64,000 nucleotides of DNA from Pelagicoccus sp. SDUM812005 (GTDB taxonomy: Bacteria; Verrucomicrobiota; Verrucomicrobiia; Opitutales; Opitutaceae): contig NZ_JARXIA010000003.1 in assembly GCF_031127875.1 (NCBI RefSeq), positions 248,001 through 312,000 of the forward strand, in the 5' to 3' direction. Position numbers and translations under genes: made by a program. The stretch's first letter is position 1. Every line of letters starts with the position of its first letter. Below the pieces are notes generated by a model that saw only the letters and a list, made by a program, of their open reading frames with translations, had not been told where the DNA came from and made no database searches. Shown here one piece after another: positions 44,500 through 64,000 of this stretch.

Positions 44500-45516
44500 A
44501 TGATTTTAAAGCATATGAATACGAAGCGCTTTTTTAATATAGGTCTCTTGGCCGCAGTTGGATTTGCAGGATGGGCCGGATGTACGAAAGCCCTCGAAGC
44601 CGGAACGGTCGCGATGAGCTACACCGAACTCTCCGGCATCGGTTGGGAGAAAGGCGTCATGCGCCGGGATCCGAGCGATGTGATCAAGGTGGGCGACTTG
44701 TATTACGTTTGGTATTCGAAGGGGCCGGATTCGACCGGCTACACGGCCACGGTTTGGTATGCCACTTCCGAGGACGGCGTCGACTGGGCGGAGAAAGGGC
44801 AAGCGGTTGCCAAGGGCAAAGCGGGAAGCTGGGAAGCGGGCGGCGTCTTTACGCCGAACATCTTGGTCGCCGAAGGGAAGTACTGGCTTTTCTACACCGG
44901 TGTTTCTCAGGAGTACACGCGTCCCTTCAATCCTGACTCGAAGATTGGCATGGCGGTGTCGGATTCGCCGGACGGTCCTTGGGAACGCATCGGTTCCGGT
45001 CCCGTGTTGGTTAACAGCGACGATCCGAGCGACTTCGACAGCCACTTGGTGGACGACGCCTGCCTTATCGTTCGCGATGGGAAGTACTGGCTCTACTACA
45101 AAGGCCGCCAATTGGGAAAGAGCCCCGCTCAGACCAAGATGGGCGTCGCGATCGCGGATCGCCCGCAAGGCCCCTACGTCAAGCACGAGGCCAATCCAGT
45201 GATCCAGGGCAACCATGAAGTGGTGGTGTGGCCGCAGGGCGAAGGCGTTGCCGCGATGATCGGCACCACCGGCCCGAAGGAGATCACGAACTCCGTACTG
45301 TATTCGGAGGATGGTATCCATTTTTCCAAGCTGCATGACGTGGTCGAAGGGCCTTGGGCAGCGGGGGCGTATCGTCCGGAAGCTTTCACCGAAAGCGGCA
45401 AGGGCGACTTGCCGGAGTGGGGCGTCGAGATTGGCCGTCCTCGTGGCATGAAAGGGCAATCTTGGCAAAAGGGGCAGCTGCCCTTCATCCAACGTTGGGA
45501 CTCGGAACTACAGTAA
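44500..45516 (+). CDS. Beta-propeller glycosidase, GH117/GH43-like (copy 1)
   Basis: A 338-residue exported protein; the N-terminus (LLAAVGFAGWAGC) is a signal peptide and possibly a weak lipobox. The body has five propeller-like repeats: 'RRDPSDVIKVGDLYYVWYSKG', 'ATVWYATSEDGVDWAEKGQA', 'FTPNILVAEGKYWLFYTG', 'DDACLIVRDGKYWLYYKGRQ' and 'GNHEVVVWPQGEGVAAMIG'. The RRDPSDVI motif and the His-containing 'NHEVVVWPQG' resemble GH117 exo-alpha-1,3-(3,6-anhydro)-L-galactosidases, which act on agar-type galactans; GH43-like enzymes are the alternative. An ATG at 44515 is another possible start. It is 6 bp before the GH116 gene and has a close paralogue at 60775. Confidence 0.68.
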   Translation: MILKHMNTKRFFNIGLLAAVGFAGWAGCTKALEAGTVAMSYTELSGIGWEKGVMRRDPSDVIKVGDLYYVWYSKGPDSTGYTATVWYATSEDGVDWAEKGQAVAKGKAGSWEAGGVFTPNILVAEGKYWLFYTGVSQEYTRPFNPDSKIGMAVSDSPDGPWERIGSGPVLVNSDDPSDFDSHLVDDACLIVRDGKYWLYYKGRQLGKSPAQTKMGVAIADRPQGPYVKHEANPVIQGNHEVVVWPQGEGVAAMIGTTGPKEITNSVLYSEDGIHFSKLHDVVEGPWAAGAYRPEAFTESGKGDLPEWGVEIGRPRGMKGQSWQKGQLPFIQRWDSELQ

Positions 45517-49063: not shown

Positions 49064-49363
49064 ATGATTAAAGATAGGAAATTGAAGTCGAATTCACCGC
49101 TGCGATTCAGGCCGCGGTGGATCCTTGGTCTGCTATTTGTGCCGTGTATCGTTTACGCAGCGGATTTTCATGTGGCGGTCGACGGAAGCGATTCGAACAG
49201 CGGCGCCATCGATGCCCCGTTCCTGACCATCGCAAAGGCGTCTTCTGCAATGCAAGCGGGCGATCGGTGGGACCGCGAGAGGATCGAGCAGGCGGAGCGC
49301 TTGAAGGAAAGCGAAAGGAAACGTCTCGAACGGCAGCGGGCGAGGGAGAACGCTGAAGAATGA
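49064..49363 (+). pseudogene. Remnant of a beta-helix protein gene, internally deleted
   Basis: The 99-residue product starts with a signal peptide ('WILGLLFVPCIVYA') and then 'ADFHVAVDGSDSNSGAIDAP' and 'FLTIAKASSAMQAGDR', which is the standard first turn of DUF1565/right-handed beta-helix enzymes (compare 'IYVSASSGSDVTGTG' and 'AGDVVYVGEGVY' in the gene at 31056). Where the helix should continue, the sequence switches to a highly charged tail ('WDRERIEQAERLKESERKRL'), unlike any beta-helix. The simplest reading is an in-frame deletion joining the start of a beta-helix gene to the end of another gene. The tail overlaps the next sulfatase start by 4 bp, suggesting that the lost upstream gene was translationally coupled to it. 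It may still be translated, but enzymatic function is unlikely. Confidence 0.7.
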
Positions 49364-50757
49364 CGGCGCGGACGAGAACCTGGGGAGCGTTTTGCGTTTT
49401 GCTTGCCTCCCACATGCTATGGGGGGAGAGCGTTGAGTCGCTAAAACCTAATATCGTGGTCATCTTTGCCGACGACCTTGGCTACGGCGATCTGGGGTGC
49501 TATGGCGCGGACTACGAGACGCCGTCCCTGGACCAGTTGGCGGCGGAGGGGCTGCGTTGTACAGATTTCATCGTTCCAGCCAACGTTTGCAGCCCTTCCC
49601 GCGCGGCGCTGCTCACGGGGCGCTATCCGATGCGCAACGGCCATCCGGTTTATCGGACGGAAGACAAGACTTGGACCTACGGCTTGCATCCGGACGAGAT
49701 CACCTTTGCGGAATTGCTGGATGCTGCGAGCTATCAAAGCCTTGCCGTCGGCAAATGGCACCTTGGATTCGAAAAGGAAGGCTCCCATCCCATGGATGCC
49801 GGCTTCGATGCGTACTACGGGCTCGCCTACAACTATTCGAAGAAGCACGAACCTTGGAACAGGGCCTTGTATCGCGACCGTGAAGTGGAAGAAGCGGAAG
49901 TGGAATTCGAGGTCGTTACGGAGCGTTATACGCAGGAAGTGGTGCGATTTATCGAGCAGCACGATCCGGATGCGCCGTTCCTTATTTACCTTGCCCACCA
50001 GATCGCGCATTCGCCGGTATTGCCGAGCGAGGCCTTCAAGGGTGCTACGGGAAAGGGCGTTTACGCGGATTTCGTTGCGGAGCTCGATCACAGCACCGGT
50101 CAGGTGCTGGAAGCGCTTCGCGACGCGGGCTTGGAGGAAAGCACTTTGGTGGTGTTCCTCGCGGACAACGGTCATACGGGGCGCTTCGGTTCCGGCGGGC
50201 CCTTGGCGGGCGGCAAGTACACGACGATGGAGGGCGGTCACCGCGTACCGGGGATATTTCGCTGGAAAGGGACCATACCCGCCGGACAAGTCTCGGATGT
50301 CACCGTAAGCAGTATGGATCTGCTTCCGCTCTTTTGCGATCTAGCGGAGGTTGAGGCGCCCAAGGATCGGAAGATCGACGGAAAGAATATCCTCAACGTT
50401 CTTCTCGGCGAAGCGGAGGAATCGCCGCACGAAATTTTGTATTATTATAATGGGCACAACCTGCAGGCGGTTCGCAAGGGGAAGTGGAAGCTTCACCTGC
50501 CGCGCTCCGCCCAAGATCAGCCGTTCTGGGGAAAGGGCGGGAGAAGTCGCCGTTTCTATGAGTTGGACGAAGCATTTCTCGTAAATCTGGAAACCGATAT
50601 CGCGGAAGAGCGGAATCTCGCCGCCCACTATCCGGAGGTCGTCACCGATCTTCTCGAGGAAGCGGAGCGGGCGCGACGCGAGTTGGGAGACGTAGGCGTT
50701 CAAGGCAGGGACCAGCGTCCGGGCTGGCCGCCGAGGCACGGCGCAAATTCGCTATGA
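49360..50757 (+). CDS. Secreted S1-family sulfatase
   Basis: A 465-residue sulfatase. Signal peptide 'GAFCVLLASHMLWG'; metal site 'IFADDLGYGDLGCYG'; maturation motif 'VCSPSRAALLTG' (Cys77); 'AVGKWHLGFEKEGSHPMDAG'; 'AHQIAHSPV'; 'FLADNGHTG'. It is closely related to the sulfatase at 55112 ('GKWHLGFHVEGSHPLDAG', 'QAVRNEKWKLHFPRSSDDQP') and more distantly to 56617, so this operon grew partly by duplication. The oxyanion-side 'ADNGHTGRFGSGGPL' differs from the usual DNGP. The ATG overlaps the upstream remnant by 4 bp, and the stop overlaps the next gene by 4 bp. Confidence 0.92.
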   Translation: MTARTRTWGAFCVLLASHMLWGESVESLKPNIVVIFADDLGYGDLGCYGADYETPSLDQLAAEGLRCTDFIVPANVCSPSRAALLTGRYPMRNGHPVYRTEDKTWTYGLHPDEITFAELLDAASYQSLAVGKWHLGFEKEGSHPMDAGFDAYYGLAYNYSKKHEPWNRALYRDREVEEAEVEFEVVTERYTQEVVRFIEQHDPDAPFLIYLAHQIAHSPVLPSEAFKGATGKGVYADFVAELDHSTGQVLEALRDAGLEESTLVVFLADNGHTGRFGSGGPLAGGKYTTMEGGHRVPGIFRWKGTIPAGQVSDVTVSSMDLLPLFCDLAEVEAPKDRKIDGKNILNVLLGEAEESPHEILYYYNGHNLQAVRKGKWKLHLPRSAQDQPFWGKGGRSRRFYELDEAFLVNLETDIAEERNLAAHYPEVVTDLLEEAERARRELGDVGVQGRDQRPGWPPRHGANSL

Positions 50758-52160
50758 AAAGGTTTCGGTCTAAAGTCTCCAAGCAGGTCTCGGCGCGGCT
50801 CCTGGCGGTTCTGATCCTGAGCTGCTGTGGGCATGCGCGAGCGGCAGCGTCCGAGTTGCCGAACTTCGTCCTTATACTCACGGACGACATGGGGTGGAAT
50901 GGGCTCTCGCTGCCCGCCGACCCGGAGATTCCGGAGTCGGGCAGCAGTTATTACCAAACGCCGCATACGGATCGCCTGGCCCAAAGCGGAATACGCTTCT
51001 CAAGAGCTTATTCGCCCTCTTCGGTGTGCGATCCCACGCGTACCAGTATCCAGTATGGGATGACGCCGACGGCACTGGGGAAGTTTGCCACGGTCGCTCC
51101 CAAGTCCTTGCCGCCTCCTTCGGATGCCATGGTCAGTCGCTTGAAGGCCGCTTTCCCCGATTATAAAGCGGCACACTTCGGCAAGTGGCACCAGCGCTCT
51201 CGCACGCCGGAGGATATTGGCTTCGACGAGAGCGATGGGCAAACCATGAACGACCAGAGCAAGGATCCTTTCGATCCGAAGATGAGCTTCTCCTTGGCGA
51301 AAAAGGCCAACGCGTTCATCGAAGCTCAGGCGAAGGCGGAAACTCCGTTCTTCCTGCAGGTTTCGTTTTACGCCAACCATCTAAAGTACCAGGCCCTTCC
51401 AGAAACGATTGCGAAATACGAGACCTTATCTGAGCGGGCGACCGAGTACCACAACTCGCCGCTTTGGGCAGCCATGAATGAGAATCTGGATACAGCTGTG
51501 GGATCCATAATGGAGGCCTTGGAAGAGCAGGGCCTATCCGATAACACCTATATCATCTATACTGCGGATAACGGCTACGAGAGTAAGCGGGATCGGCTTC
51601 TACCTATGTCGGAGCGCGACTTCTATAAGTCTTATCCGCTGCGGAGCCATAAGTACGTGATCAGCGAAGGCGGCATCAGAGTGCCGTTTATCGTGAGTGG
51701 CCCGGGCATTCCTGCAGGCGTAAGTTCGCGGGTTCCTGTCGTCGGTTGGGATATCATGCCAACCGTTCTCGATTTGGCGGGCGCCAGCGAACAGATTCCC
51801 GATGCTGTGGAGGGAGGCTCCTTGCGTTCTCTGTGCTTCAGTGGTGGCAATGCCGAAGTCGAAAGGCGGGACCCGTTTATGGTGTTTCGGTCGGCGATGG
51901 CTAGGGAGGAGCAGGGCGTTTTCGGCGGCGTTTTGGATGTGGCGATCATTCAAGACGGGTATAAGTTCTATCGCGAGATCGAGTCCGGAAACGAATACCT
52001 CTGGGCGATCGAGGAAGATTTGGGAGAATCGAATAACCTGATCCGCGTCATGCCTGAGCTCGCCGAGCGCCTGCGCAAGAACATGGACGCGTATTGTGAG
52101 CGTGTCGGCTGGGACCAGAAAGAAAGAGCGAAGTTTTTGGGGCGAAAGAAGCGAGGGTAA
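50754..52160 (+). CDS. Secreted S1-family sulfatase with unusual CDPTR motif
   Basis: A 468-residue divergent sulfatase. Signal peptide 'LLAVLILSCCGHARAAA'. The metal site is 'ILTDDMGWNGLSL', where GYGD is usual. The maturation motif is 'VCDPTRTSIQYG' (Cys92): C-x-P-x-R is kept, but an acidic residue follows the cysteine and the usual '(A)xLxTG' helix is replaced by TSIQYG. The lysine/histidine motif is 'HFGKWHQRSRTPED'. 'YTADNGYESKRDRL' and 'ISEGGIRVPFIVSGPG' complete the site. The family is related to arylsulfatases A, but the changed surroundings suggest a distinct subfamily. It overlaps the previous gene by 4 bp. Confidence 0.88.
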   Translation: MKRFRSKVSKQVSARLLAVLILSCCGHARAAASELPNFVLILTDDMGWNGLSLPADPEIPESGSSYYQTPHTDRLAQSGIRFSRAYSPSSVCDPTRTSIQYGMTPTALGKFATVAPKSLPPPSDAMVSRLKAAFPDYKAAHFGKWHQRSRTPEDIGFDESDGQTMNDQSKDPFDPKMSFSLAKKANAFIEAQAKAETPFFLQVSFYANHLKYQALPETIAKYETLSERATEYHNSPLWAAMNENLDTAVGSIMEALEEQGLSDNTYIIYTADNGYESKRDRLLPMSERDFYKSYPLRSHKYVISEGGIRVPFIVSGPGIPAGVSSRVPVVGWDIMPTVLDLAGASEQIPDAVEGGSLRSLCFSGGNAEVERRDPFMVFRSAMAREEQGVFGGVLDVAIIQDGYKFYREIESGNEYLWAIEEDLGESNNLIRVMPELAERLRKNMDAYCERVGWDQKERAKFLGRKKRG

Positions 52161-52240
52161 GAGGTCGAAAAAGAAATTTGAAGCTATTGAAAAGCGTGGA
52201 ACGGTTTAGAAGCGGCACTCGCCGCAGTCATTCAAGAGTC

Positions 52241-53671
52241 ATGATCAGAGTAACAGCAAATATTACATTTTTAGTCCTGGCATTTGCCTTGGCGCCTCAC
52301 GTCGCGTCAGCGGCTAAGCCCAGTCGACAAGCTCAGGAGAAACCGAACTTTATTATTATCTTCACCGATGACCAGGGCTATCAGGATGTCGGCTGTTACG
52401 GTTCGCCCGATATCAAGACGCCGCGGCTCGATCGCATGGCGGAGGAGGGGATGCGCTTTACCAGCTTTTATGCCCATACGGTCTGCGGGCCGTCGCGGGG
52501 AGCCTTGATGACGGGCAGCTATCCCTTGCGTTTCGCTCGTTTCGACGATCCGGACTCGATCCACCCGGAGCTGCACTTGGAGGAGGTCACCCTCGCCGAA
52601 GTCCTTAAGGAAGAGGGCTACGCGACGGGAGCTTTTGGAAAATGGGATTTGGCGGGACACAATCCGACGGCCTACAAAAAGGAGCTCCTGCCAACGTATC
52701 AGGGATTCGACTACTACTTTGGAACGCCAGGCAGCAACGACAAGTACGTGGATCTGATTCGCGGAACGGAGCGGATCGAGGAAAAGGCGGATATGGCCAC
52801 CTTAACCCAGCGCTATACTGACGAAGCCTTGTCTTTTATGGAACGGAATCAGGACCGTCCGTTTTTCGTCTACCTCGCCCATACCATGCCGCATACCCGA
52901 TTGGCGGCTTCGGAGGCATTTAGAGGCAAGTCGGAAGGTGGCTTGTATGGGGACGTCATTGAAGAGTTGGACTATCACATCGGGCGCGTGCTCGATAAGG
53001 TCGACGAGCTCGGGCTTGACGAAAATACATACGTTATCTTCACCAGCGACAACGGGCCCTGGCACATCCGGGGAGATCATGGCGGGCATGCGGAACCGCT
53101 GCGGGGAGCCAAGACGTCCTGCTGGGAAGGTGGCTTGCGGGTGCCGTGTATCATGCGAGCGCCAGGGCGCGTCCCGGCGGGCCAGGTGACTGATGCCATT
53201 ACTGCAACCATTGATCTGCTGCCAACGCTGGCGGACTTGGCGGGCGCGTCCGTTCCCCAGGATCGCGTAATCGACGGGATCAACATTTCATCGGTGATGC
53301 ACGGCAAAGGCGATGACTTGGAACGCAGCTACTTCTACTACCAGCACGATTGCTTGCGAGCGGTGCGTTCCGGAAAGTGGAAACTGATGTTGCCGCATAC
53401 GGAGCCGTTGGAAGGAAGTATCGGTTGGAAGTGGAGAAATCACATCAAAGCGGAAGACCGTATCCGCTTCGAGAAGGCGCACCTTTACGACCTGGAAGCG
53501 GATATCGGGGAGACGACGGATGTGGCGGATCAGAACCCGGAAGTCGTGGCGGAGCTGATGCAGCTTGCCCAATGGGCCCGCGAAGATATCGGCGATCACG
53601 ACGTTTTTGGAGCGAACGCCCGTACTTTCGGGGCTGAAAGGCGAACGCTTACGAGCGAGAAGAAGCTATGA
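52241..53671 (+). CDS. Secreted S1-family sulfatase with GKWD in place of GKWH
   Basis: A 476-residue sulfatase. The start at 52241 gives the signal peptide 'NITFLVLAFALAPHVASA'; the frame opens upstream at 52178 without one. Metal site 'IFTDDQGYQDVGCYG'; maturation motif 'VCGPSRGALMTG' (Cys82). The lysine/histidine motif reads 'FGKWDLAGHNP': the histidine that normally contacts the formylglycine is Asp136 (GAT at 52646-52648), with another histidine four residues on. 'HTMPHTRLA' and 'FTSDNGPWHIRGDHGG' are intact. Whether this is a functional subfamily variant or an early stage of decay is not clear. Its last 4 bp overlap the next gene. Confidence 0.9.
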   Translation: MIRVTANITFLVLAFALAPHVASAAKPSRQAQEKPNFIIIFTDDQGYQDVGCYGSPDIKTPRLDRMAEEGMRFTSFYAHTVCGPSRGALMTGSYPLRFARFDDPDSIHPELHLEEVTLAEVLKEEGYATGAFGKWDLAGHNPTAYKKELLPTYQGFDYYFGTPGSNDKYVDLIRGTERIEEKADMATLTQRYTDEALSFMERNQDRPFFVYLAHTMPHTRLAASEAFRGKSEGGLYGDVIEELDYHIGRVLDKVDELGLDENTYVIFTSDNGPWHIRGDHGGHAEPLRGAKTSCWEGGLRVPCIMRAPGRVPAGQVTDAITATIDLLPTLADLAGASVPQDRVIDGINISSVMHGKGDDLERSYFYYQHDCLRAVRSGKWKLMLPHTEPLEGSIGWKWRNHIKAEDRIRFEKAHLYDLEADIGETTDVADQNPEVVAELMQLAQWAREDIGDHDVFGANARTFGAERRTLTSEKKL

Positions 53672-55110
53672 AGAAGGAGCTGCTAACTGCGATCGGCCTT
53701 GTCTTTTTCCTTGTCGGAATTTCGTCTTGGGCGGCTGGCTCTGGGAAGGCTCAACCGAACTTTATTGTCATATTGACTGATGATCAGGGCTACGGAGATC
53801 TAGGCTGCTTCGGAGGGGATCATGTAAAGACGCCGCGTATTGATAAAATGGCGACGGAAGGGGTCATGCTAACGAGCTTCTACATGGCCGGATCGGTTTG
53901 CACGCCCTCGCGCTCGGCCTTGATGACGGGGAGCTATCCTAAGAGGATCGGGTTGGCGGACGGAGTCTTTTTAGCGGGCGACGAGAGAGGACTGAGTCCG
54001 GAAGAACTTACGATTGCCGAGATCTTGAAGTCAGCGGGATATCGAACCGGGATATTCGGCAAGTGGCACTTGGGCGACCAGCCGGAGTTTTTGCCGACGC
54101 GGCAAGGCTTCGACGCTTTTTTCGGGCTGCCTTATAGCCACGACATTCATCCCTACCATATGAACAAGCGTCATAACTTCCCGCTTCTGCCGCTGTTGGA
54201 AGGCGAGGAGGTAATCGAGGAGGAGCCCGATGCGGATTACCTGACGAAGCGGATTACGGAACGGGCGGTGGATTTTATCGAACGGCATAAGGACGAGCCG
54301 TTTTTCCTCTACGTGCCGCATCCCCTTCCGCATCGCCCGATTCATATGTCCCCTCCGTTTATGGAGACAGCCCCGGAGGAGATCAAAGCGAAGCTTGAGG
54401 AAGAGCAGGGCATCGATTATTTGACGCGGGATAAACTGTATCATCACGCGATCAGCGAGATCGACTGGTCCGTAGGTCAGATCCTCGATGCCCTGGTGGC
54501 GAACGGAATCGATGAGAATACGCTGGTGATTTTCACTTCCGACAATGGTCCTTCGGTGGGTTCGACCGGTTCGTTGACGGGAGGGAAGGGTAGTTCTTAC
54601 GAAGGCGGACAGCGTGTCCCGACAGTGATTCGCTGGCCGGGAGCCATTCCGGCGGGAGGGAAGAACGACACGCTGATGAGCGCTATGGATTTGCTTCCAA
54701 CCTTTGCGAAGCTGGCCGGGGTGGAGGTTCCCTCGGACCGAGCGATCGACGGTAGAGATGTTTGGGCAGCGTTGACCGAGGGCGTTGAAACGCCGCACGA
54801 AGCGTTTTTTTACTACAAGGGAAGTCGTCTGGAGGCGGTGCGCTCGGGTCCGTGGAAACTGCATTTGGGCAGGCCGGGGAAAAGCTCGAAGGGAGCCGAA
54901 CGGCGCGGCAAGGGGTCGAGCTCGCCGATAGCCGCGTTGTATCATTTGGATACGGACGCGGGCGAGCAGGTGAATGTTTTGAATGACTATCCGGAGGTCG
55001 CGGAACGCTTGCGAGCGTATGCGAAGGCCTTTGAAGCGGAGTTGAGCGAGGATAGTCGCCCCGCTGGAAAAGTGGAAGAGGCGAAAATTTTGACGAGGAG
55101 GATTCGGTGA
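53668..55110 (+). CDS. Secreted S1-family sulfatase
   Basis: A 480-residue sulfatase. Signal peptide 'IGLVFFLVGISSWAAG'; metal site 'ILTDDQGYGDLGCFGGDHV'; maturation motif 'VCTPSRSALMTG' (Cys78); 'IFGKWHLGDQPEFLPTRQGF'; 'PHPLPHRPIH'; 'FTSDNGPSVGS'. It is a close paralogue of the sulfatase at 61776: both share 'GKWHLGDQ.EFLPTRQGF', 'PYSHDIHP', 'PLPLLEGE.VIE.EPDADYL' and 'RITERAV.FIE'. A GAGGAGG sequence near its 3' end (55094-55100) probably serves the next gene, which starts one base after its stop. Confidence 0.93.
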   Translation: MKKELLTAIGLVFFLVGISSWAAGSGKAQPNFIVILTDDQGYGDLGCFGGDHVKTPRIDKMATEGVMLTSFYMAGSVCTPSRSALMTGSYPKRIGLADGVFLAGDERGLSPEELTIAEILKSAGYRTGIFGKWHLGDQPEFLPTRQGFDAFFGLPYSHDIHPYHMNKRHNFPLLPLLEGEEVIEEEPDADYLTKRITERAVDFIERHKDEPFFLYVPHPLPHRPIHMSPPFMETAPEEIKAKLEEEQGIDYLTRDKLYHHAISEIDWSVGQILDALVANGIDENTLVIFTSDNGPSVGSTGSLTGGKGSSYEGGQRVPTVIRWPGAIPAGGKNDTLMSAMDLLPTFAKLAGVEVPSDRAIDGRDVWAALTEGVETPHEAFFYYKGSRLEAVRSGPWKLHLGRPGKSSKGAERRGKGSSSPIAALYHLDTDAGEQVNVLNDYPEVAERLRAYAKAFEAELSEDSRPAGKVEEAKILTRRIR

Positions 55111-55111
55111 G

Positions 55112-56620
55112 ATGGAGATGTTTTATAGAAGTTTTTTATCGTTAGCTTTCGACGCGTTCTTAGGTAGGGCTCGACCGCCGGGCGAGCCGAGGAGAATTGA
55201 ACCTGCGATGCGGTCCGCCCGGCGGTCGGACCCTACCTTGCTTGGCCTCGTTTCCGTTTTCTTGCTGGTATTGACTGTGGGAGCCTATGCTGAGAAACCG
55301 AACATCATCCTGATCTTCGCGGATGATCTTGGTTACGGCGACTTGGGGTGTTACGGGGCGGATCTGGCGACGCCGGAGATCGATCGCTTGGCCGCTCAGG
55401 GATTGCGGGCGACGGACTGTTTGGTGGGGGCTAATGTATGCGGGCCTTCCCGCTCGGCTTTGATGACGGGGCGTTATCCGATGCGGGTGGGGCATCCGAT
55501 TTCCCGGCATCCATTTCCTAAATACGCCGCATATGGAATCGCTCCTGATGAGCTGACCATGGCGGAACTGCTGAAGTCGGCGGGCTACTACACCAAGATG
55601 ATTGGCAAGTGGCATCTCGGCTTTCACGTGGAAGGAAGCCACCCGCTCGATGCCGGCTTCGACGACTATTTGGGGCTGCACAGCAATCATCTTGCGAGCC
55701 GGCCGGATGCGAGCGCTCTCTACCGGAATCGGGAAATCGTTCGGGCGGACATTCCTTTCACGGAAGTGACGAAGCTATACACCGACGAGGCCGTGGAATT
55801 CATCAAGGCGGATCACAAGGAACCCTTTTTCCTCTATTTCGCCCATCACATTCCGCATACGCCCATCGAAGCGAGCGAGCCCTTCGTGGGTGCCTCCGGC
55901 AAGCCGGGCAAGGACGGGGAGTATAGCGATGTGGTGCTGGAGCTCGACCATAGCGTGGGGCGGGTCGTCGCTGCGCTCGAGGAAGCGGGAATCGTCGACG
56001 ATACCTTGCTCGTGTTCCTGTCGGATAACGGTCCGGCGAGATTCGGATCGGCGGGGGATCTGCTCGGTGGCAAGTACGTCACCACGGAAGGAGGACACCG
56101 CGTTCCCGCTATTTTCCATTGGCCGAAGCGAATTCCTGCAGCTCAGGTTTCCGACGCCCTGATGACCAGCATGGACCTATTGCCCTTGTTCTGTGACGTG
56201 GCGGGCGTGGCGCTCCCCACGGATCGAACCTACGATGGAAAGAACATCATCAAGCTTCTAACCGGTGAAGAGACGCAAAGCCCTCACCGCTATTTCCATT
56301 ACTACAATGGACTCCATCTGCAGGCGGTGCGAAACGAGAAGTGGAAGCTGCACTTTCCCCGTAGCTCAGATGACCAGCCTTACTGGGCGAAGCGCGACAG
56401 CGGAAAGAGGGTGTACACTACCTTGGAGGCGCCTTTGTTGTTTAATTTGGATACGGATGCTGGTGAGAGAAAAAATGTCTATTCCCAGCACCCGGAAGTC
56501 GTTGCGGAGCTGATGAGAGAAGCGGAACGGATCCGTGCCGAAATCGGTGACCTGCATATGGTCGGTAGGGATCAACGGCCGCATGGCTTGGCGAATCCGC
56601 AGGAGAAGGGAGAACCGTGA
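55112..56620 (+). CDS. Secreted S1-family sulfatase whose 5' end contains a REPIN-like element
   Basis: A 502-residue sulfatase. The catalytic part is canonical: 'IFADDLGYGDLGCYG', 'VCGPSRSALMTG' (Cys110 from this start), 'MIGKWHLGFHVEGSHPLDAG', 'AHHIPHTPIE', 'FLSDNGPARFGS'. The N-terminus is unusual. Translation from 55112, which has a well-placed GAGGAGG, gives MEMFYRSFLSLAF, then about 30 polar residues encoded by an inverted-repeat element (55163-55237), then the hydrophobic core 'LLGLVSVFLLVLTVGAYA'. An ATG at 55208 inside the element would give a normal signal peptide. So either the insertion lengthened the n-region in frame, or it created a new start. Paralogue of 49360. Confidence 0.9.
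   Translation: MEMFYRSFLSLAFDAFLGRARPPGEPRRIEPAMRSARRSDPTLLGLVSVFLLVLTVGAYAEKPNIILIFADDLGYGDLGCYGADLATPEIDRLAAQGLRATDCLVGANVCGPSRSALMTGRYPMRVGHPISRHPFPKYAAYGIAPDELTMAELLKSAGYYTKMIGKWHLGFHVEGSHPLDAGFDDYLGLHSNHLASRPDASALYRNREIVRADIPFTEVTKLYTDEAVEFIKADHKEPFFLYFAHHIPHTPIEASEPFVGASGKPGKDGEYSDVVLELDHSVGRVVAALEEAGIVDDTLLVFLSDNGPARFGSAGDLLGGKYVTTEGGHRVPAIFHWPKRIPAAQVSDALMTSMDLLPLFCDVAGVALPTDRTYDGKNIIKLLTGEETQSPHRYFHYYNGLHLQAVRNEKWKLHFPRSSDDQPYWAKRDSGKRVYTTLEAPLLFNLDTDAGERKNVYSQHPEVVAELMREAERIRAEIGDLHMVGRDQRPHGLANPQEKGEP
55163..55237. repeat. REPIN-like element: two REP hairpins in inverted orientation
   Basis: The arms GGTAGGGCTCGACCGCCGGGC (55163-55183) and, inverted, 55217-55237 agree at 19 of 21 positions. 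Each arm also folds alone: GGCTCG / CGAGCC on the left and GGTCCG / CGGACC on the right. The two differences are compensatory, so each stem remains perfect. A GTAG tetranucleotide opens each arm, as in REP sequences mobilised by RAYT transposases. The element lies within the 5' part of a sulfatase gene. Confidence 0.75.
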
Positions 56621-58080
56621 TTAGAACGAAAATTAAGTTAATCGCCCTTGCGGGCATGCTCTGCGCTTCCGTCTCTTGCTGGGGCAAGGCTAGGACTGAT
56701 CGTCCCAACGTGATCTTCATCCTCATGGACGACATGGGGTACAGCGATGTCAGTTGCTACGGCGCTGAAAAAGTGGATACGCCGAACATCGATCGCATGG
56801 CGGCGGAGGGGCTTATGTTTACGGACTTCCATACGGGCGCCTCGATCTGTTCGCCTTCGCGGGCGGCGTTCTTGACCGGCGCCTATCCGCAACGAGCGGG
56901 GCTCTACATGGGAATCAACCAAAACCGGGAAGCCCATTGGTTTCTGGGATTGAATCCGGAGGAGCTTACGATCGCCGAGCAGTTCAAGAAGCAAGGCTAC
57001 GTCACTGCTCTCGTAGGCAAGTGGCACTTGGGAAAGGAGGAGGCGTTTTCCTACTATGGCCAAGGTTTCGACCATTATTACGGGGCGCCGGACAACATGG
57101 GGCATAACTCCGCCTTCTACGACGATCGGGAAGTGGTCTATGAGTCCACGCCGCTGGACCAGCTGACGACGCTCTACACCGAACGTATGGTCCAGCATAT
57201 CGAGGACTTTCGGAACCAACCCTTCTTCATCTATTTCGCCCACAATTATCCGCATACTCCCTACCGGGCAGGTCCCGAGTTCAAGGGCGCTTCCGACGAC
57301 GGCGTGCGGGGCGACATTATCGAGGAAGCGGATTGGGGGATTGGCGAGATTCTGAAAGCGCTCGAAGCCAACGGACTTCTGGAAAATACGCTTGTAATCT
57401 TCAGCTCCGATAACGGACCCGTGAAGGAGGAGTACGCTCAGCCCTATAGCGGAACCAAGTACGTATCCAGGGAAGGAGGACATCGAGTCCCGTTTATCCT
57501 GTACTGGAAAGGGACCTTGGAACCGGCGGTCTCTGAGGTGCCGGTAGTGGCCATGGACTTGTTTCCCACCTTGAGCGAACTGATCGGAGCTCCCTTGCCG
57601 GAGGATCGGGTATACGATGGCGTCAGCTTGCTGCCCTTGTTCGAGGGCAAGGCGATTGCCCGTGCGGCGGACGAGCCGTTTTACTACTACAACTGCGAAA
57701 ACCTGCAGGCGGTTCGGGTAGGCGACTGGAAGCTGCACCTGCCGCGTCGCATGGAGCAGATTCCGTTTTGGGCCATGAAAAAGCAGCAGGAGATCGCCGC
57801 GCCGCGCCTGTATCATCTCGCTAACGACGTGGCTGAGGAACGGGACCTTGCCGCTCAATATCCGGAGCGTGTATCCGAAATGATGGCCCTGGCGGAAGGG
57901 ATTCGGGCGAAGCTTGGCGAGTATGGCCGACGCGGCTCCGATCAGCGAGCCACGGGAACGCTCTTTCCGGAAGTGCCTATCGTATCGAACCATCTTACCG
58001 ATTGGGATAAGCTGTCCGACGAGGAAAAGGGCAGGGCCAAGTCGGAATTCCTACCCAAGAAGAAAGCAAGGAAGAAGTAG
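56617..58080 (+). CDS. Secreted S1-family sulfatase (GTG start)
   Basis: A 487-residue sulfatase. It starts at a GTG overlapping the previous stop (GTGA), with AAGGGAG upstream at 56607-56613. Signal peptide 'KLIALAGMLCASVSCWG'; metal site 'ILMDDMGYSDVSCYG'; maturation motif 'ICSPSRAAFLTG' (Cys78); 'LVGKWHLGKE'; 'AHNYPHTPYR'; 'FSSDNGPV'. It shares the late motif 'YYNxxxLQAVRxGxWKLHLPR' with the sulfatases at 49360 and 55112. The C-terminus is strongly basic (KKKARKK). It stops 5 bp before the next gene. Confidence 0.92.
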   Translation: MIRTKIKLIALAGMLCASVSCWGKARTDRPNVIFILMDDMGYSDVSCYGAEKVDTPNIDRMAAEGLMFTDFHTGASICSPSRAAFLTGAYPQRAGLYMGINQNREAHWFLGLNPEELTIAEQFKKQGYVTALVGKWHLGKEEAFSYYGQGFDHYYGAPDNMGHNSAFYDDREVVYESTPLDQLTTLYTERMVQHIEDFRNQPFFIYFAHNYPHTPYRAGPEFKGASDDGVRGDIIEEADWGIGEILKALEANGLLENTLVIFSSDNGPVKEEYAQPYSGTKYVSREGGHRVPFILYWKGTLEPAVSEVPVVAMDLFPTLSELIGAPLPEDRVYDGVSLLPLFEGKAIARAADEPFYYYNCENLQAVRVGDWKLHLPRRMEQIPFWAMKKQQEIAAPRLYHLANDVAEERDLAAQYPERVSEMMALAEGIRAKLGEYGRRGSDQRATGTLFPEVPIVSNHLTDWDKLSDEEKGRAKSEFLPKKKARKK

Positions 58081-58085
58081 CACGT

Positions 58086-59645
58086 GTGAGGAAACTGAAT
58101 ACAGCTTGTTTGGCCATGCTTGCTTTCCTGTTTGGGGGAAGCGAGGCCAGCGCCGCGAGGGGAGGCTTGCCCAACGTGGTGCTTATCGTGGCCGAAGACC
58201 TTGGCTATGGCGACCTTGGCTGCTACGGGGCGACGCGGGTGCGGACGCCGCATATCGACGGCTTGGCGGAACGTGGGCGTCGCTTTACGGATGCCCATTC
58301 CGCGTCCGCCGCGAATTCTCCGTCGCGCTACGCGCTGCTGACGGGGCAGTACCCGTTTCGGGTCGACCTCTGGGCTCCGGTTCGCAATACCTCCGGCCTG
58401 GTCATCGATCCGGAGACCTTCACGATCGCGGACCTTTTCAAGAAGAAGGCCTACGCGACCGGGTTCGTCGGAAATTGGCAGCTCGGTTTCGGGGCTGGCG
58501 AAACCGATTGGTCGAAACCGCTTCGTCCCGGCCCGCTGGAGCTCGGCTTCGACTCCTATTTTGGCATCCCTGTAATCAATAGCGTCAGCCCCTTCCTTTA
58601 CGTTGAGAACGACCGGCCGCTGGGCCATGATCCAGCGGATCCATTGGTCTTCATTGGATCCAAACGCCCAGACGAAGCGACGCCGCTTAAGCCGCTGCCG
58701 CCCGAATCGGAGGTTGGCCAGCGTTCGGAGAATGCGTTTAGCGGGGCGGTCGAAGCTCACGAAAGCTACGACGATTTCGAGCAAGGCATACGACACACCG
58801 AAAAGGCAGTTGAGTGGATTCGCTCCCAAGACGATGGTCCTTTCTTCCTCTATTTTTCAGCCCTGAATATCCATCATCCTTATACGCCGGCCGAGCGATT
58901 CCGAGGGAGCAGCGAAGCGGGCGTCTATGGAGACTACCTTCATGAGCTGGACTGGATGGTTGGCGAAATCGTTGCGTGCCTCGAGGAGCGAGGGCAGCTG
59001 GACGATACCTTGATCGTATTTACCAGCGACAACGGCGGGATGTTCAGCAAGATCGCCCAAGACGCCTATCAGCTTGGCCATGAAAACAACGGCAGCTTGC
59101 TTGGCTATAAATTCGGAGCCTGGGAGGGCGGTCACCGCGTTCCCTTTATCCTGTCCTGGCCCGGCAAGGTGGAGGCGGGATCGGTTTCGGAGGAGCTGCT
59201 TTGTACGATGGACCTTCTCGCGACCTTTGCGGCGATTACGGAGCAAGCGGCGCCGGCTGGCGATAGTCTCAACCAATTGCCGACCTTCCTAGGCGAGACG
59301 AGGGAGCCGGTGCGGAAAGAGCTGGTAATTGCTGCCCGTCAGGAGGAGCACCTTTCGCTTCGCAAAGGGAAGTGGATGTATATTCCATTCCAAGGGAGCG
59401 GAGGCTTTCGCGGAAAGCAACCCGGCCAAAACGGATTCGCCGGCCCTGCGGCGGCTAGCTACGCGGGTCGAGAGAACAGCGATATCGAAAACGGACGTAT
59501 CAAGGAATCGGCTCCGCCGGGGCAGCTTTACGATCTCGAACGGGACTTGAGCCAAACGACGAATCGCTACCGCGACTACCCGCACCGCGTGGAGCGGATG
59601 GCGTCATTGCTGAACGAATACGTAGATGCGTCCCAGTCGCCCTAG
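58086..59645 (+). CDS. Catalytically degenerate sulfatase-like protein (pseudo-sulfatase)
   Basis: A 519-residue secreted protein (GTG start, signal peptide 'ACLAMLAFLFGGSEASA') with a complete S1 sulfatase fold and no frameshift or stop. Several active-site residues are replaced. The maturation motif reads 'AANSPSRYALLTG', so the formylglycine cysteine is Asn77 (AAT at 58314-58316). The metal pair reads 'VAEDLGYGD' (Glu37 for Asp). The sulfate-binding motif reads 'VGNWQLGFG' (Asn130 for Lys, Gln132 for His). 'NIHHPYTP' and 'FTSDNGGMFS' remain. The incomplete gene at 63307 is a close paralogue with every residue intact ('SASAVCTPSRYG', 'VVGKWHLGFG'). It should not work as a formylglycine sulfatase; it may bind sulfated glycan. 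Confidence 0.9.
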   Translation: MRKLNTACLAMLAFLFGGSEASAARGGLPNVVLIVAEDLGYGDLGCYGATRVRTPHIDGLAERGRRFTDAHSASAANSPSRYALLTGQYPFRVDLWAPVRNTSGLVIDPETFTIADLFKKKAYATGFVGNWQLGFGAGETDWSKPLRPGPLELGFDSYFGIPVINSVSPFLYVENDRPLGHDPADPLVFIGSKRPDEATPLKPLPPESEVGQRSENAFSGAVEAHESYDDFEQGIRHTEKAVEWIRSQDDGPFFLYFSALNIHHPYTPAERFRGSSEAGVYGDYLHELDWMVGEIVACLEERGQLDDTLIVFTSDNGGMFSKIAQDAYQLGHENNGSLLGYKFGAWEGGHRVPFILSWPGKVEAGSVSEELLCTMDLLATFAAITEQAAPAGDSLNQLPTFLGETREPVRKELVIAARQEEHLSLRKGKWMYIPFQGSGGFRGKQPGQNGFAGPAAASYAGRENSDIENGRIKESAPPGQLYDLERDLSQTTNRYRDYPHRVERMASLLNEYVDASQSP

Positions 59646-59731: not shown

Positions 59732-60727
59732 ATGAATTCCGAAGAACTGAATCGCAGAGAAGCTATCAAGAGAGGAGCCATCCTTGGCGGTGGTATGCTG
59801 GCCCTGAAGGGCTTGAGCCCGCTGGCTTGGGCGGCGCCGCGTTCCAACGAAATGCCGATGTCGTTCTTCGGAAAAACGGGGGTGCGCGTTTCTAAGATCG
59901 GCGTGGGGACGGCCTCCTTGTCCAAGCCGGAATGCAGCGAGGAAGAGGCGATGCGGGTGATCGATCAAGCGATCGACGAAGGTATTAACTATTTCGATAC
60001 GGCGCCTCGCTACGACCAAGGGGAGGCGGAGCGTCGCACCGGCAAGGGCCTGAAGGGGAAGCGGGACAAGGTTTTCCTCGTTTCGAAGACTCATGATCAA
60101 AGCTACGAGGGAACTTGGAAGCTGCTGGAGCAAAGCCTCAAGCACCTGCAGACCGATTACCTGGACATGGTGCACCTTCACAATATCGGCCATGAAGAAC
60201 GTTGGGAAGATCTGGACTTCGCCTTCAGTGAAAAGGGAGCGATGGGCGCTTTGCGGGAGGCCAAGCAGAAGGGCATGGTTCGCTTCATCGGGGCGACCGG
60301 GCATCTTTATCCGAGCCGGTTCGGCCGCGTTGTCGAATCCGATGAGATCGATGCCCTGATGGTGGCGGTAAACTTCGTTAACCAGCATACTTACAATTTC
60401 GAGGACAAGGTTTGGCTGCCCGCGGCTAGCAAGAACAAAGGGCTGGTGTCCATGAAGGTGTTCGGCGGGCGAGTCGGTCGTACGGCCTCGCACCGTTTCG
60501 ATCCGGCGGACTACGAGAACGCCTTGCGCTATACCTTGAGTCTCAAAGGATTGAATACAGCGGTAGTGGGAATGAGTAGCAGGGCCCACTTGAACCAGTT
60601 GCTGGAGACCTTTCGCCGGGTGGACGCTTTGAGCGAGGAGGAACTAATCGCCGTAGCACGTCGCGGTCGCGAGCTCATTGAAGAAAACCCGCGTCTGCAG
60701 GCGATGCATGGCGGCTCGACAGCCTAG
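59732..60727 (+). CDS. Tat-exported aldo/keto reductase
   Basis: A 331-residue oxidoreductase of the aldo/keto reductase superfamily. A twin-arginine signal is visible at the start (NRREAIKRGAILGGGMLAL, residues 7-25), so it is expected in the periplasm. The TIM-barrel motifs are 'VGTASLSKPECSEEEAMRVIDQA', 'NYFDTAPRYDQGEAERRTGK' (catalytic Asp and Tyr region), 'VFLVSKTHDQ' (Lys), 'DMVHLHNIG' (His) and 'AVVGMSSRAHLNQLLE'. Exported members of this family are common in saccharolytic PVC bacteria, but their substrates are mostly unknown; a sugar aldehyde is possible. An AAGGAG ribosome site lies at 59719-59724. The gene sits within the sulfatase operon. Confidence 0.88.
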   Translation: MNSEELNRREAIKRGAILGGGMLALKGLSPLAWAAPRSNEMPMSFFGKTGVRVSKIGVGTASLSKPECSEEEAMRVIDQAIDEGINYFDTAPRYDQGEAERRTGKGLKGKRDKVFLVSKTHDQSYEGTWKLLEQSLKHLQTDYLDMVHLHNIGHEERWEDLDFAFSEKGAMGALREAKQKGMVRFIGATGHLYPSRFGRVVESDEIDALMVAVNFVNQHTYNFEDKVWLPAASKNKGLVSMKVFGGRVGRTASHRFDPADYENALRYTLSLKGLNTAVVGMSSRAHLNQLLETFRRVDALSEEELIAVARRGRELIEENPRLQAMHGGSTA

Positions 60728-60774
60728 TCGCGGTGAGATCGGGTGTAGTAGATAGCGAGTTACAGACATTTAGA

Positions 60775-61755
60775 ATGAAACCAAAGGTTTTGAACAAACT
60801 TTCGCTCCTGGCGCATTTGCTGGTTGCCGTCCTTGCGACGGTTCCCTCAACCCAGGCGGAGTCGCAGGATTACGGGAGGGCGTCGCTCACGCATACTCGA
60901 TTGACGGGGATCGGCCCGGAAGAAGGAGTTTCCCGGCGAGACCCGAGCGATATCATAGAAGTCGGCGGGCTCTATTACGTCTGGTATTCGCGTGGGCCGG
61001 TTCGGACTGGCTACGACGCTACCGTTTGGTACGCGACCTCCCCGGACGGCTTGCGCTGGACGGAACGAGGTCAGGCGATTGCCAAGGGCGAAAGCGGAGC
61101 TTGGGACGAGGCAAGCGTTTTCACTCCAAACATTCTGGTGGCTGAAGGAAAGTATTGGCTGTTTTATACTGGGATTTCGAAGGATCCTGAGATCAAGCCC
61201 GATTCGAAGATCGGTATTGCAGTTGCGGATACGCCAGACGGACCCTGGGAACGCTTGTCCAGCAATCCCGTGCTGCGGAACAGCGAAAACGAATCCGATT
61301 TCGATAGTCACTTGGTTGACGATTCTTGCCTGATCGTTCGGGACGGAAAGTACTGGCTTTATTATAAGGGGCGTCAGCTGGGCAAGCAACCCAGCGAAAC
61401 GCAAATGGGGCTGGCGATCGCGGATTCGCCCGGTGGGCCGTACGTGAAGCATTCCGCCAATCCCGTCATTCCCGGCAACCACGAGGTGGTCGTTTGGCCG
61501 CAGGGAAAAGGCGTAGCGGCGATGATTGGAAAAGTCGGGCCGAAGGACCTGGTGCGAACCGTGCAATACGCGGAGGATGGGGTTTATTTCTCAAAGACCC
61601 ATGAGCTTTCGCAGGAGGCGTTTGCGGGAGGCACGTATCGACCGGAAGCCTTCACTGGCAGCGATGAGGGCGAGGCTCCGGTCTGGGGCGTTGAAATTGG
61701 AAAAGCCGGAAAGCTGCTTTGTATCCAACGATTCGATATCGAATGGAGCGAGTAG
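60775..61755 (+). CDS. Beta-propeller glycosidase, GH117/GH43-like (copy 2)
   Basis: A 326-residue exported paralogue of the protein at 44500. The start at 60775 gives the signal peptide 'LSLLAHLLVAVLATVPSTQA'. It shares 'RRDPSDIIEVGGLYYVWYSRG', 'ATVWYATSPDGLRWTERGQAI', 'FTPNILVAEGKYWLFYTG', 'DDSCLIVRDGKYWLYYKGRQ' and 'GNHEVVVWPQGKGVAAMIG' with copy 1. The two differ most near their C-termini (FDIEWSE here; WDSELQ there) and in loops, so they may cut related linkages. The family call has the same uncertainty as for copy 1. It is 47 bp after the aldo/keto reductase and 20 bp before the next sulfatase. Confidence 0.68.
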   Translation: MKPKVLNKLSLLAHLLVAVLATVPSTQAESQDYGRASLTHTRLTGIGPEEGVSRRDPSDIIEVGGLYYVWYSRGPVRTGYDATVWYATSPDGLRWTERGQAIAKGESGAWDEASVFTPNILVAEGKYWLFYTGISKDPEIKPDSKIGIAVADTPDGPWERLSSNPVLRNSENESDFDSHLVDDSCLIVRDGKYWLYYKGRQLGKQPSETQMGLAIADSPGGPYVKHSANPVIPGNHEVVVWPQGKGVAAMIGKVGPKDLVRTVQYAEDGVYFSKTHELSQEAFAGGTYRPEAFTGSDEGEAPVWGVEIGKAGKLLCIQRFDIEWSE

Positions 61756-61775
61756 GACGCTTGGGGAACGAAGAA

Positions 61776-63257
61776 ATGAAAAACGTTTTAAATATAATTC
61801 TGAATACGCCTCTAAACCGGAGGAAATGCGCAATGGCGGCCGCGCTTATGGGTCTTCACCTCCTCGGTGTTTCGCAGCTGGGCGCGGAATCCTCAGCATC
61901 ATCTGAGACGCCGCCGCGTCCGAACCTGGTGATCATCTTCACCGATGACCAAGGGTACGCGGACTTGAGCTGCTTTGGTGGGGATCATGTCCTGACTCCG
62001 AATATCGATCGGATGGCGGCGGAGGGCGTTCGCTTGACGAGCTTTTATGTCGGCGCCCCGCTTTGTTCGCCGTCGCGGGCGGCCTTGATGACAGGCTGTT
62101 ACCCGTCGCGTATCGATATGGGAACTCCCTCTTCGATCGCGGTGGACCTGCCGAATGTCCCGCGGGGAAAGTGCTTCCCCGTTTTCTTGGCAGGTGACGG
62201 ACGGGGCCTGAATCCGGAGGAATTCACGATTGCCGAGGCGGCGCAATCGGCTGGATACAAGACGGGCATGTTCGGCAAATGGCATTTAGGCGACCAGACG
62301 GAATTCCTACCGACCCGCCAGGGCTTCGAGGAGTATTTTGGAATTCCCTACAGCCACGATATCCATCCCGCCCACCGGCGGCAGGAGATCTTCAATTTCC
62401 CTCCACTGCCGCTGCTGGAAGGAGAGACCGTAATCGAAATGGAGCCTGACGCGGATTACCTGACGCGGCGCATCACGGAGCGGGCGGTGTCGTTTATCGA
62501 GAAGAACAAGGACGAGAACTTTTTCCTCTACGTGGCGCATCCCTTGCCGCATGGCCCTCTGGCGGCGTCGCCGGAGATCAAGAAGGAGTACGCTCAGAAA
62601 GTCGGGACGGACGATAAGGCGAAACAAGGGCTTTATTCCACCGCGATCTATGAGATCGATTGGTCGGTGGGAGAAATTCTAGACGCCCTCGAGGAGCAGG
62701 GAATCGAGAAGAATACGATTGTACTCTTTGCGACCGATAATGGTCCGGCTGGACGGAAAGGTTCCGCAAAACCCTTGAGCGGATGGAAAGGCAAAACGCT
62801 TGAAGGCGGCATGCGCGTGCCTGCGGTGCTTCGTTGGCCAAATGGTATTCCGGCGGGGACCGAAGTCGATGAGCTGGTGACGGCCATGGACGTGCTGCCC
62901 ACCTTTGCGAAGCTCGCGGGAGCGAAGCTGCCAAGAGACCGTGCCATCGACGGGAAGGATATCTTGCCTACCTTGGCGGACGGCGCGGAAAGCCCGCACG
63001 AGTATTTCTTCTATGCCCACTGGGGCACCCTGGAAGCGGTGCGTTGGAAGGATTGGAAGCTGCGCATCGTGGATGGAGAAGAAGCGCTCTACAATTTGGA
63101 TACGGATATCTCGGAGAAAACGAATCTCGCATCCAGCCACCCGGAAATCGTGCAGCAGCTCAAGGGCGCCATGCAGGCCTTCGAAAAGGAAATGGAGGCG
63201 AACGAGCGCCCTGCAGGCTCGGTCGACAACCCGACGCCTCTGGCCCTTATCCCGTGA
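61776..63257 (+). CDS. Secreted S1-family sulfatase
   Basis: A 493-residue sulfatase. The start at 61776 (MKNVLNIILN) avoids overlap with the upstream gene; the frame opens at 61719. The signal peptide is unusually long-headed, with hydrophobic core 'AAALMGLHLLGVSQLGA'. Metal site 'IFTDDQGYADLSCFGGDHV'; maturation motif 'LCSPSRAALMTG' (Cys97); 'MFGKWHLGDQTEFLPTRQGF'; 'AHPLPHGPLA'; 'FATDNGPAGRKGS'. It is a close paralogue of the sulfatase at 53668, with an insert of about 20 residues after 'RIDMGTPSS'. Confidence 0.92.
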   Translation: MKNVLNIILNTPLNRRKCAMAAALMGLHLLGVSQLGAESSASSETPPRPNLVIIFTDDQGYADLSCFGGDHVLTPNIDRMAAEGVRLTSFYVGAPLCSPSRAALMTGCYPSRIDMGTPSSIAVDLPNVPRGKCFPVFLAGDGRGLNPEEFTIAEAAQSAGYKTGMFGKWHLGDQTEFLPTRQGFEEYFGIPYSHDIHPAHRRQEIFNFPPLPLLEGETVIEMEPDADYLTRRITERAVSFIEKNKDENFFLYVAHPLPHGPLAASPEIKKEYAQKVGTDDKAKQGLYSTAIYEIDWSVGEILDALEEQGIEKNTIVLFATDNGPAGRKGSAKPLSGWKGKTLEGGMRVPAVLRWPNGIPAGTEVDELVTAMDVLPTFAKLAGAKLPRDRAIDGKDILPTLADGAESPHEYFFYAHWGTLEAVRWKDWKLRIVDGEEALYNLDTDISEKTNLASSHPEIVQQLKGAMQAFEKEMEANERPAGSVDNPTPLALIP

Positions 63258-63306: not shown

Positions 63307-64000
63307 ATGAGAACGAAGCTATTAACCCTAATCCTTTCAATGCTGGCAGCGGGCACCCTCTGCTCGGCCGCGACTTCGCCTTCCATGCGGCAAGTAGCTC
63401 CCAACGTGGTGCTCATCTTCGCCGACGATCTTGGCTATGGGGACCTTGGCTGCTATGGCGCGACGAAAGTGGATACGCCGAACATCGATCGCCTCGCGGC
63501 GGAAGGGCGTCGCTTCACGGACGCTCATTCGGCCTCGGCTGTCTGTACGCCATCTCGCTACGGTCTGCTAACGGGAGAGTATCCTTACAAGGCCGATGGC
63601 GGCAAGGGACTTTGGGGGCCGTGCCCGATCGAGTCACCGCTGCTGATCGACGTCGAAACGCAGACCATTGCCGACGTATTCAAAAGCAAGGGATACGATA
63701 CGGCAGTGGTCGGTAAGTGGCATCTCGGTTTCGGGGAAGGCGAGAACGATTGGCAGAAGCCCTTGAGTCCGGGCCCGCGCGACTTGGGCTTCGATTATTA
63801 TTTCGGGATGCCAGTGGTGAACAGCGCCCCTCCGTACGTGTATGTGGAAAATGAACACGTGGTGGGCGGCGATCCGTCGGATCCATTGATCTACCTCGGG
63901 CGAAACGCGGAGAAGAAGCCCGTGACGCCGATTACGCCAATTCCTCCCGAGGCATCCCAACGTACGGAAAACCGCTTCCAAGGCGCGGTCGAAGCGCATA
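63307..64000 (+). CDS. Secreted S1-family sulfatase, N-terminal part (runs off right edge)
   Basis: The first 231 codons of a sulfatase that continues past the window. Signal peptide 'LLTLILSMLAAGTLCSA'; metal site 'IFADDLGYGDLGCYG'; maturation motif 'VCTPSRYGLLTG' (Cys80); 'VVGKWHLGFGEGENDWQKPL'. It is the intact paralogue of the degenerate protein at 58086: both have 'DAHSASA' before the motif, 'SPGPRDLGFDYYFGMPVVNS' against 'RPGPLELGFDSYFGIPVINS', and 'RFQGAVEAH' against 'AFSGAVEAH'. An in-frame ATG at 63268, with AGGAA just upstream, is an alternative start but would put 13 polar residues before the signal peptide. Confidence 0.9.
   Translation, partial: MRTKLLTLILSMLAAGTLCSAATSPSMRQVAPNVVLIFADDLGYGDLGCYGATKVDTPNIDRLAAEGRRFTDAHSASAVCTPSRYGLLTGEYPYKADGGKGLWGPCPIESPLLIDVETQTIADVFKSKGYDTAVVGKWHLGFGEGENDWQKPLSPGPRDLGFDYYFGMPVVNSAPPYVYVENEHVVGGDPSDPLIYLGRNAEKKPVTPITPIPPEASQRTENRFQGAVEAH

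Follow-up and report, generated by a model that had tools for sequence, protein, structure and literature searches.

A candidate pseudo-sulfatase with a shared set of active-site replacements, encoded in a sulfatase gene cluster of Pelagicoccus

What is a sulfatase gene kept for when the residue that should mature to formylglycine has been replaced and the reading frame is still open? The question is raised by a single gene in a stretch of 64,000 nucleotides from Pelagicoccus sp. SDUM812005 (contig C53:248001-312000), which we refer to as the window in the following. An earlier note, made from the letters of this stretch alone, had described the gene as that of a full-length pseudo-sulfatase with four altered active-site residues, which lies in an operon of sulfatases and may be under selection for a non-catalytic role.

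The frame is indeed open over the length given in that note, and the protein it encodes (the window protein) starts with a probable signal peptide (Table 1). It matches the Pfam family Sulfatase (PF00884) over residues 29-384 at 8.7e-52, which places it in the alkaline-phosphatase/sulfatase fold. The gene is the seventh in a run that starts with six sulfatase genes, all on a single strand and separated by -4, 17, -4, 1, -4 and 5 bases, and this arrangement agrees with the operon that had been proposed. Promoter and terminator patterns near the gene occur in counts close to those in shuffled sequence. On the 3' side, a gap of 86 bases is followed by genes for an aldo/keto reductase, a GH43/GH32-like protein, a sulfatase and, 3.7 kb downstream, a complete paralogue, which is 57% identical to the window protein in the genome search and 54% identical in BLASTP. 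This paralogue had been described as intact, and it does have the Cys, the Lys, the His and both Asp.

Table 1. Positions of the features discussed in the text, counted from the first letter of the window.
Feature	Position	Strand	Remarks
Six sulfatase genes upstream	49360..58080	+	Probably one operon with the pseudo-sulfatase gene; spacings -4 to 17 bases
Pseudo-sulfatase gene	58086..59645	+	519 codons and stop; begins with GTG (58086), stop codon 59643-59645
Probable signal peptide region, about residues 1-24	58086..58157	+	By eye from the translation
Glu37	58194..58196	+	GAA at 58194; first metal-ligand position; Asp in 93/93 Cys-bearing subfamily members
Ala76 and Asn77	58311..58316	+	AAT (Asn77) at 58314; Val and formylglycine Cys in 93/93
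Asn130-Trp131-Gln132	58473..58481	+	AAT at 58473, CAG at 58479; Lys-Trp-His in relatives, Lys and His in 93/93
Tyr266	58881..58883	+	Three residues past conserved His263; Phe in 90/93
Ser321	59046..59048	+	Shortly after conserved Asp315-Asn316; Asn in 90/93
Aldo/keto reductase	59732-60727	+	
GH43/GH32-like protein	60733-61755	+	
Sulfatase	61719..63257	+	72% homologue adjoins the orthologue L119 in the other genome
Complete Cys-bearing paralogue	63307..64000	+	534 codons, first part in the window; runs past the window end

All four replacements named in the note are real: Glu37, Asn77, Asn130 and Gln132 take the places of the Asp, Cys, Lys and His of sulfatases. The list was short, however, as V76A, F266Y and N321S, which are common to the orthologue described below, have to be added to it, together with G122A, which is private to the window protein. 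Where the formylglycine signature C/S-x-P/A-x-R is expected, the protein reads N-S-P-S-R, and the Lys and His of G-K-x-H are absent. Without a precursor residue, and with neither Lys nor His left in the second signature, the window protein should, as judged from its sequence, be unable to act as a formylglycine sulfatase. Asp38, Arg81, His263, Asp315, Asn316 and Lys342 are retained; in the predicted calcium site (two Asp, a further Asp and an Asn), Asp38, Asp315 and Asn316 are thus present, with Asp37 changed to Glu.

How unusual these residues are can be read from the host genome itself (6.65 Mb in 118 contigs), which contains 118 matches to PF00884. From the stretches around these matches, we aligned 115 sulfatase-like open reading frames, 112 of which cover the catalytic motif. 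The catalytic position is occupied by Cys in 110 of them, by Asn in one, the window gene, and by Gly in one on contig C26. Lys is found at position 130 in 108 of the 112 frames and Asp at position 37 in 106. Glu stands at position 37 in four frames, and the three others besides the window gene (L075, L096 and L118 on contigs C50, C33 and C22) retain Cys; Glu37 is therefore not by itself a loss, and Glu may serve as a metal ligand. Likewise, His132 occurs in 82 of the 110 frames with a residue there and is variable in the wider family, so that its loss alone says little. A published survey, in the part available to us, gives the conservation of these positions as 96% for the Asp, 94% for the Lys and 81% for the His (PMC5066984). 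The frame with Gly (L117:679-2022, minus strand; C26:52226-53176) is the second sulfatase-like one without Cys; it belongs to a different subgroup, and its first metal Asp is replaced by Ser and the later one by Val. Furthermore, partial sulfatases at contig ends (both ends of C59, the start of C39 and the end of C53) carry near-identical motifs, as if the assembly had split and part-duplicated one gene.

Beyond the host, protein searches covered the genus, family, order, class and phylum of the window as well as the families or class of four of the genomes that gave matches. Groups beyond the genus were mostly sampled, with cut-offs from 1e-60 to 1e-185 (one at the default) and a maximum of 30 loci per search, and the broad searches scored the best 3 to 8 first-look candidates per genome, so that further copies can have been missed. 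Subfamily members were recovered from about 47% identity upward in these whole-genome protein searches. Among the matches listed, there is one orthologue, L119 (G284:C2:772211-773719), which comes from another family of the same order and is 64% identical to the window protein. It has Glu37, Ala76, Ser77, Asn130, Gln132, Tyr266 and Ser321, and its signature reads S-S-P-S-R. The search for orthologues with the same substitutions, which the note had suggested, has thus yielded one protein that is likewise without the Cys, the Lys and the His at those positions.

We aligned the window protein and L119 with 93 members of the subfamily that have Cys77, to a total of 95 rows; L057 (N-terminus missing), L004-L030 (distant or partial), L058-L064 (distant) and L065 were left out. 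Asp37, Val76, Cys77, Lys130 and His132 are found in all 93, and none of these members departs at any of ten catalytic and metal positions (37, 38, 77, 81, 130, 132, 263, 315, 316 and 342), which were picked from general arylsulfatase knowledge. In having lost catalytic residues that 93 of 93 relatives retain, the window protein corresponds to what is understood by a pseudoenzyme. Two members, L142 and L180, have CTASR in place of CTPSR, which is a permitted variant of the signature. As for the sequences outside the alignment, Cys is present in L004-L006, and L065:327-581, on a short planctomycete contig, is a sulfatase start with AEDLGYGD whose frame enters unrelated sequence, probably because the gene is broken or the assembly faulty.

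When a genome-contig collection (84,980 species) was scanned for six peptide patterns taken from the window protein, 75 stretches matched, one of which encodes a relative, namely a 3.6-kb fragment from a planctomycete, with similarity over residues 9-91 and other sequence beyond; the scan tests exact patterns only, and a copy with diverged patterns would escape it. The viral collection gave zero matches to the window protein, and all 35 matches in plasmid records are below 60% identity, with the top-listed one at 39%.

Do the replacements form a set, or are they part of a general drift from the consensus? Among the complete members, 145 sites show an invariance of 95% or more. Eight of these near-invariant positions (37, 76, 77, 122, 130, 132, 266 and 321) are altered in the window protein, which keeps the other 137, and L119 departs at 13, which include seven of the eight and carry the identical residue at six (E37, A76, N130, Q132, Y266 and S321). 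Four of the seven shared departures fall among the ten catalytic and metal positions (hypergeometric p = 0.00037). The 93 complete members, by comparison, show a median of 1 departure, and never more than 10, at the 145 sites, so that the 13 of L119 exceed them all; outside the ten positions, the window protein departs at four sites and L119 at nine, which lies inside the range of the complete members and above their median. The two proteins differ at about 37% of positions, and at the least conserved sites they have 34-38% of residues in common, yet six of the seven altered residues in the active-site region are identical. This agreement would hint at constraint on the altered pocket itself. 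The hint is modest, because the same replacement is found at 58 of the 125 sites where both proteins leave the consensus, and if agreement at each site had a probability of 50%, at least six identical residues out of seven would arise in 6% of cases. On the strength of the same six residues, a working altered pocket, whether for binding or for new chemistry, would be no less likely than a passive scaffold.

Such a pocket could belong to an altered enzyme, whose site was rebuilt so as to act on the same glycan by a new reaction, for instance on a different ester or by a metal-and-water mechanism that does without a covalent nucleophile. The specific set common to both proteins fits this idea, as do more states that hardly occur outside the pair (V35, R100, L305, T374 and F435, plus N449 as a sixth) and the presence of Asp38, Asp315 and Asn316 next to a potential metal ligand in Glu37. 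However, position 77 is Asn in one protein and Ser in the other, so that the two have no nucleophile in common, both the Lys and the His are gone, and the searches made found no known family enzyme with this residue set. We therefore consider an altered enzyme rather unlikely.

The history of the two genes bears on whether they are maintained at all. In a tree of 80 members, which was calculated with the seven altered columns removed by a quick method with SH-aLRT support and without bootstrap, the window protein and L119 are sisters (SH-aLRT 99). The stem of the pair measures 0.36 and its tips 0.62 and 0.59; given a median end branch of 0.24, the pair evolves faster than most of its relatives. 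Fast tips and missing catalytic residues could also point to a dying gene or a sequencing error. Against simple decay or error stand the open frame, the recurrence of the same changes in L119, which comes from a separate assembly, and a pairwise omega of 0.048 for the two genes, which is tested against 1 with a likelihood ratio of 374 and is a rough figure given a saturated dS of 5.15. Decay and sequencing error are thus very improbable, and we have set them aside.

The omega value also answers the dN/dS comparison proposed in the note: at about 0.05 it is far from 1, with dS saturated and for one orthologue pair, and within these bounds it indicates the purifying selection expected for a conserved pseudoenzyme. 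We computed eight pairs altogether, three of which gave meaningless dS because synonymous sites were exhausted. Three pairs of neighbouring sulfatases have omega values of 0.051-0.062 and the GH43-like pair one of 0.027, with dS saturated throughout, and the pseudo-sulfatase gene accordingly looks about as constrained as its neighbours. The claim of selection for a non-catalytic role can therefore be upheld in part: the orthologue and the omega value speak for selection for something other than sulfate-ester hydrolysis, but the note had overlooked altered catalysis.

The serine of L119 suggests a further scenario, in which L119 at least is still a sulfatase that uses Ser as its precursor, and the window protein descends from such a form by a recent loss. 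In addition to the S-S-P-S-R motif of L119, this is favored by a large survey, according to which Ser is the precursor in 22% of FGly-sulfatases (Barbeyron et al. 2016a, cited in the available part of PMC6388578). The same source, as far as available, describes Ser precursors as rare in sulfatase-rich PVC bacteria (5/2040), and both proteins are without the Lys and His that are present in 93 of 93 relatives, which makes this scenario improbable.

The genomic surroundings of the two genes are related. The L119 gene is located on a contig of 884,666 bases, where it is flanked by homologues of the window sulfatases at 61719 (72%) and 52178 (68%); homologues of the GH43/GH32-like genes of the window (63-77%) and of the sulfatase at 49360 (67%) are found nearby, as are GH95, GH116 and GH29 genes. 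The window cluster in turn has GH29, GH116 and TonB-dependent receptor genes, with GH116 and GH95 beyond the window end, and the gene order differs between the two clusters. Besides the GH43/GH32-like gene listed in Table 1, the window holds a second one at 44500-45516, and several homologues of these two (60-77%) are found in the L119 cluster. This gene set would suit sulfated, fucose-containing polysaccharides. According to the available part of PMC8857213, the fucoidan genes of isolates related to the fucoidan degrader Lentimonas sp. CC4 are located on megaplasmids.

These surroundings also invite the idea of a partner or scaffold, which would form complexes with the complete paralogue or with the sulfatases of the operon and stabilise, regulate or inhibit them. 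The gene belongs to the same run as six sulfatase genes and lies shortly before that paralogue, and the fold is retained. The neighbours of L119, by contrast, are only partly the same, and a passive scaffold needs no specific altered pocket. A partner role therefore appears doubtful to us, although it is, with the altered enzyme, the chief competitor of the binding role discussed below.

In fold and at most conserved positions, the window protein resembles family S1 of the SulfAtlas classification. The nearest sequences in the PDB are those of S1_15, i.e. BT1624 (7oze), BT3333 (6s20) and the carrageenan enzymes S1_15A/B (9bas, 9bau), with a phmmer E-value of 1.5e-84 for BT1624. Structural comparisons were made with a predicted model with a mean pLDDT of 68.8 and low confidence in parts: ranks 1-8 in Foldseek are S1_15 chains, and in VIA-align 2 several S1 subfamilies are level at Z 36-40. 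Unlike the S1_15 structures, the window protein has neither Cys nor Ser at the formylglycine position, nor the Lys/His pair. BT3333 reads the sugar (O4) by an Asp/Arg pair, D173 and R174, according to the available part of PMC6994673. With an offset of two that we infer between the numbering of the chain and that of the paper, this pair aligns with Ser166-Val167 of the window protein, where the subfamily consensus is Ser-His; the O3-reading His of BT3333, H225, falls in a stretch where the alignment is uncertain. Since the Asp/Arg pair is absent from both the window protein and the consensus, we have rejected an assignment to S1_15, although the sequence is nearest to this subfamily, and no galactose-6-sulfate specificity is to be assumed.

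A precedent for the use of the sulfatase fold outside sulfatases is LapC/YejM (PbgA), which has a regulatory role and whose gene is not known from sugar clusters. An assignment to LapC/YejM was likewise rejected, as the NF038282 score is 17.7 bits and the cut-off 825; moreover, LapC/YejM is a membrane protein according to the excerpts available, unlike the window protein in its presumed periplasmic form. As stated in the available part of PMC5066984, the C/S-x-P-x-R signature is absent from many members of PF00884, and nine sequences that have lost its charged residue may be inactive. The signature-less proteins covered there are members of other groups (with Thr, or with T-x-N-x-E) or no longer have the Arg, and that part describes no clade with a rebuilt pocket inside a sulfatase subfamily. 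In the open-licence literature, we found no sulfatase pseudoenzymes by title and no pseudoenzymes in polysaccharide clusters. There is thus precedent for sulfatase-like sequences that lack the signature; what seems new is a rebuilt and retained clade inside a sulfatase subfamily.

We think it probable that the two proteins represent a dedicated, anciently kept clade whose pocket was rebuilt as a set (E37, A76, N/S77, N130, Q132, Y266 and S321) and which serves as a periplasmic glycan holder or as an enzyme of new specificity in clusters for sulfated fucose polysaccharides. To the more specific reading we give about an even chance: the gene would have arisen long ago by duplication of a formylglycine sulfatase, would have ceased to encode one, and would have been kept by selection, in two members, for another job, most likely the binding of sulfated glycans in the periplasm.

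The Lys and His of the second signature normally contact the sulfate. With both of them lost, this contact may be weak, and the ligand may be held mainly via its sugar side or be a desulfated product. In a binding role, the mature protein would be periplasmic and would retain the sugar side of the pocket along with part of the anion and metal site (the six conserved residues from Asp38 to Lys342 named above). A sulfated, probably fucose-rich oligosaccharide, or a partly desulfated product, could then be bound without being cleaved, and would thereby be held, presented or buffered for the sulfatases and fucosidases of the cluster. Holding without cutting is a natural reading insofar as Cys-to-Ser sulfatases hold sulfated sugars in crystals, as described in the available part of PMC12549532. 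These laboratory mutants (S1_15A C94S, S1_15B C84S and S1_8B C92S) are likewise without formylglycine and can hold sulfated glycan, but they are man-made, and in the text available their Lys and His appear to be unmutated. The window protein might be the natural counterpart of these glycan-trapping mutants made by crystallographers. The binding role is the least certain step of this explanation, and counting against the explanation as a whole are the small number of members, two, their fast tips, the 13 departures of L119 and the fact that its Ser is a legal formylglycine precursor.

Bacteria of the host's type carry a hundred or more sulfatase genes, and annotation counts genes such as this one as enzymes. 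If the window protein is a conserved member of the family without its chemistry, some sulfatase-like proteins would work by binding, and classifications based on C/S-x-P-x-R would omit them. Furthermore, a small set of substitutions may separate the holding of a sulfated sugar from its cutting, and the complete paralogue further downstream in the same cluster offers itself for the comparison.
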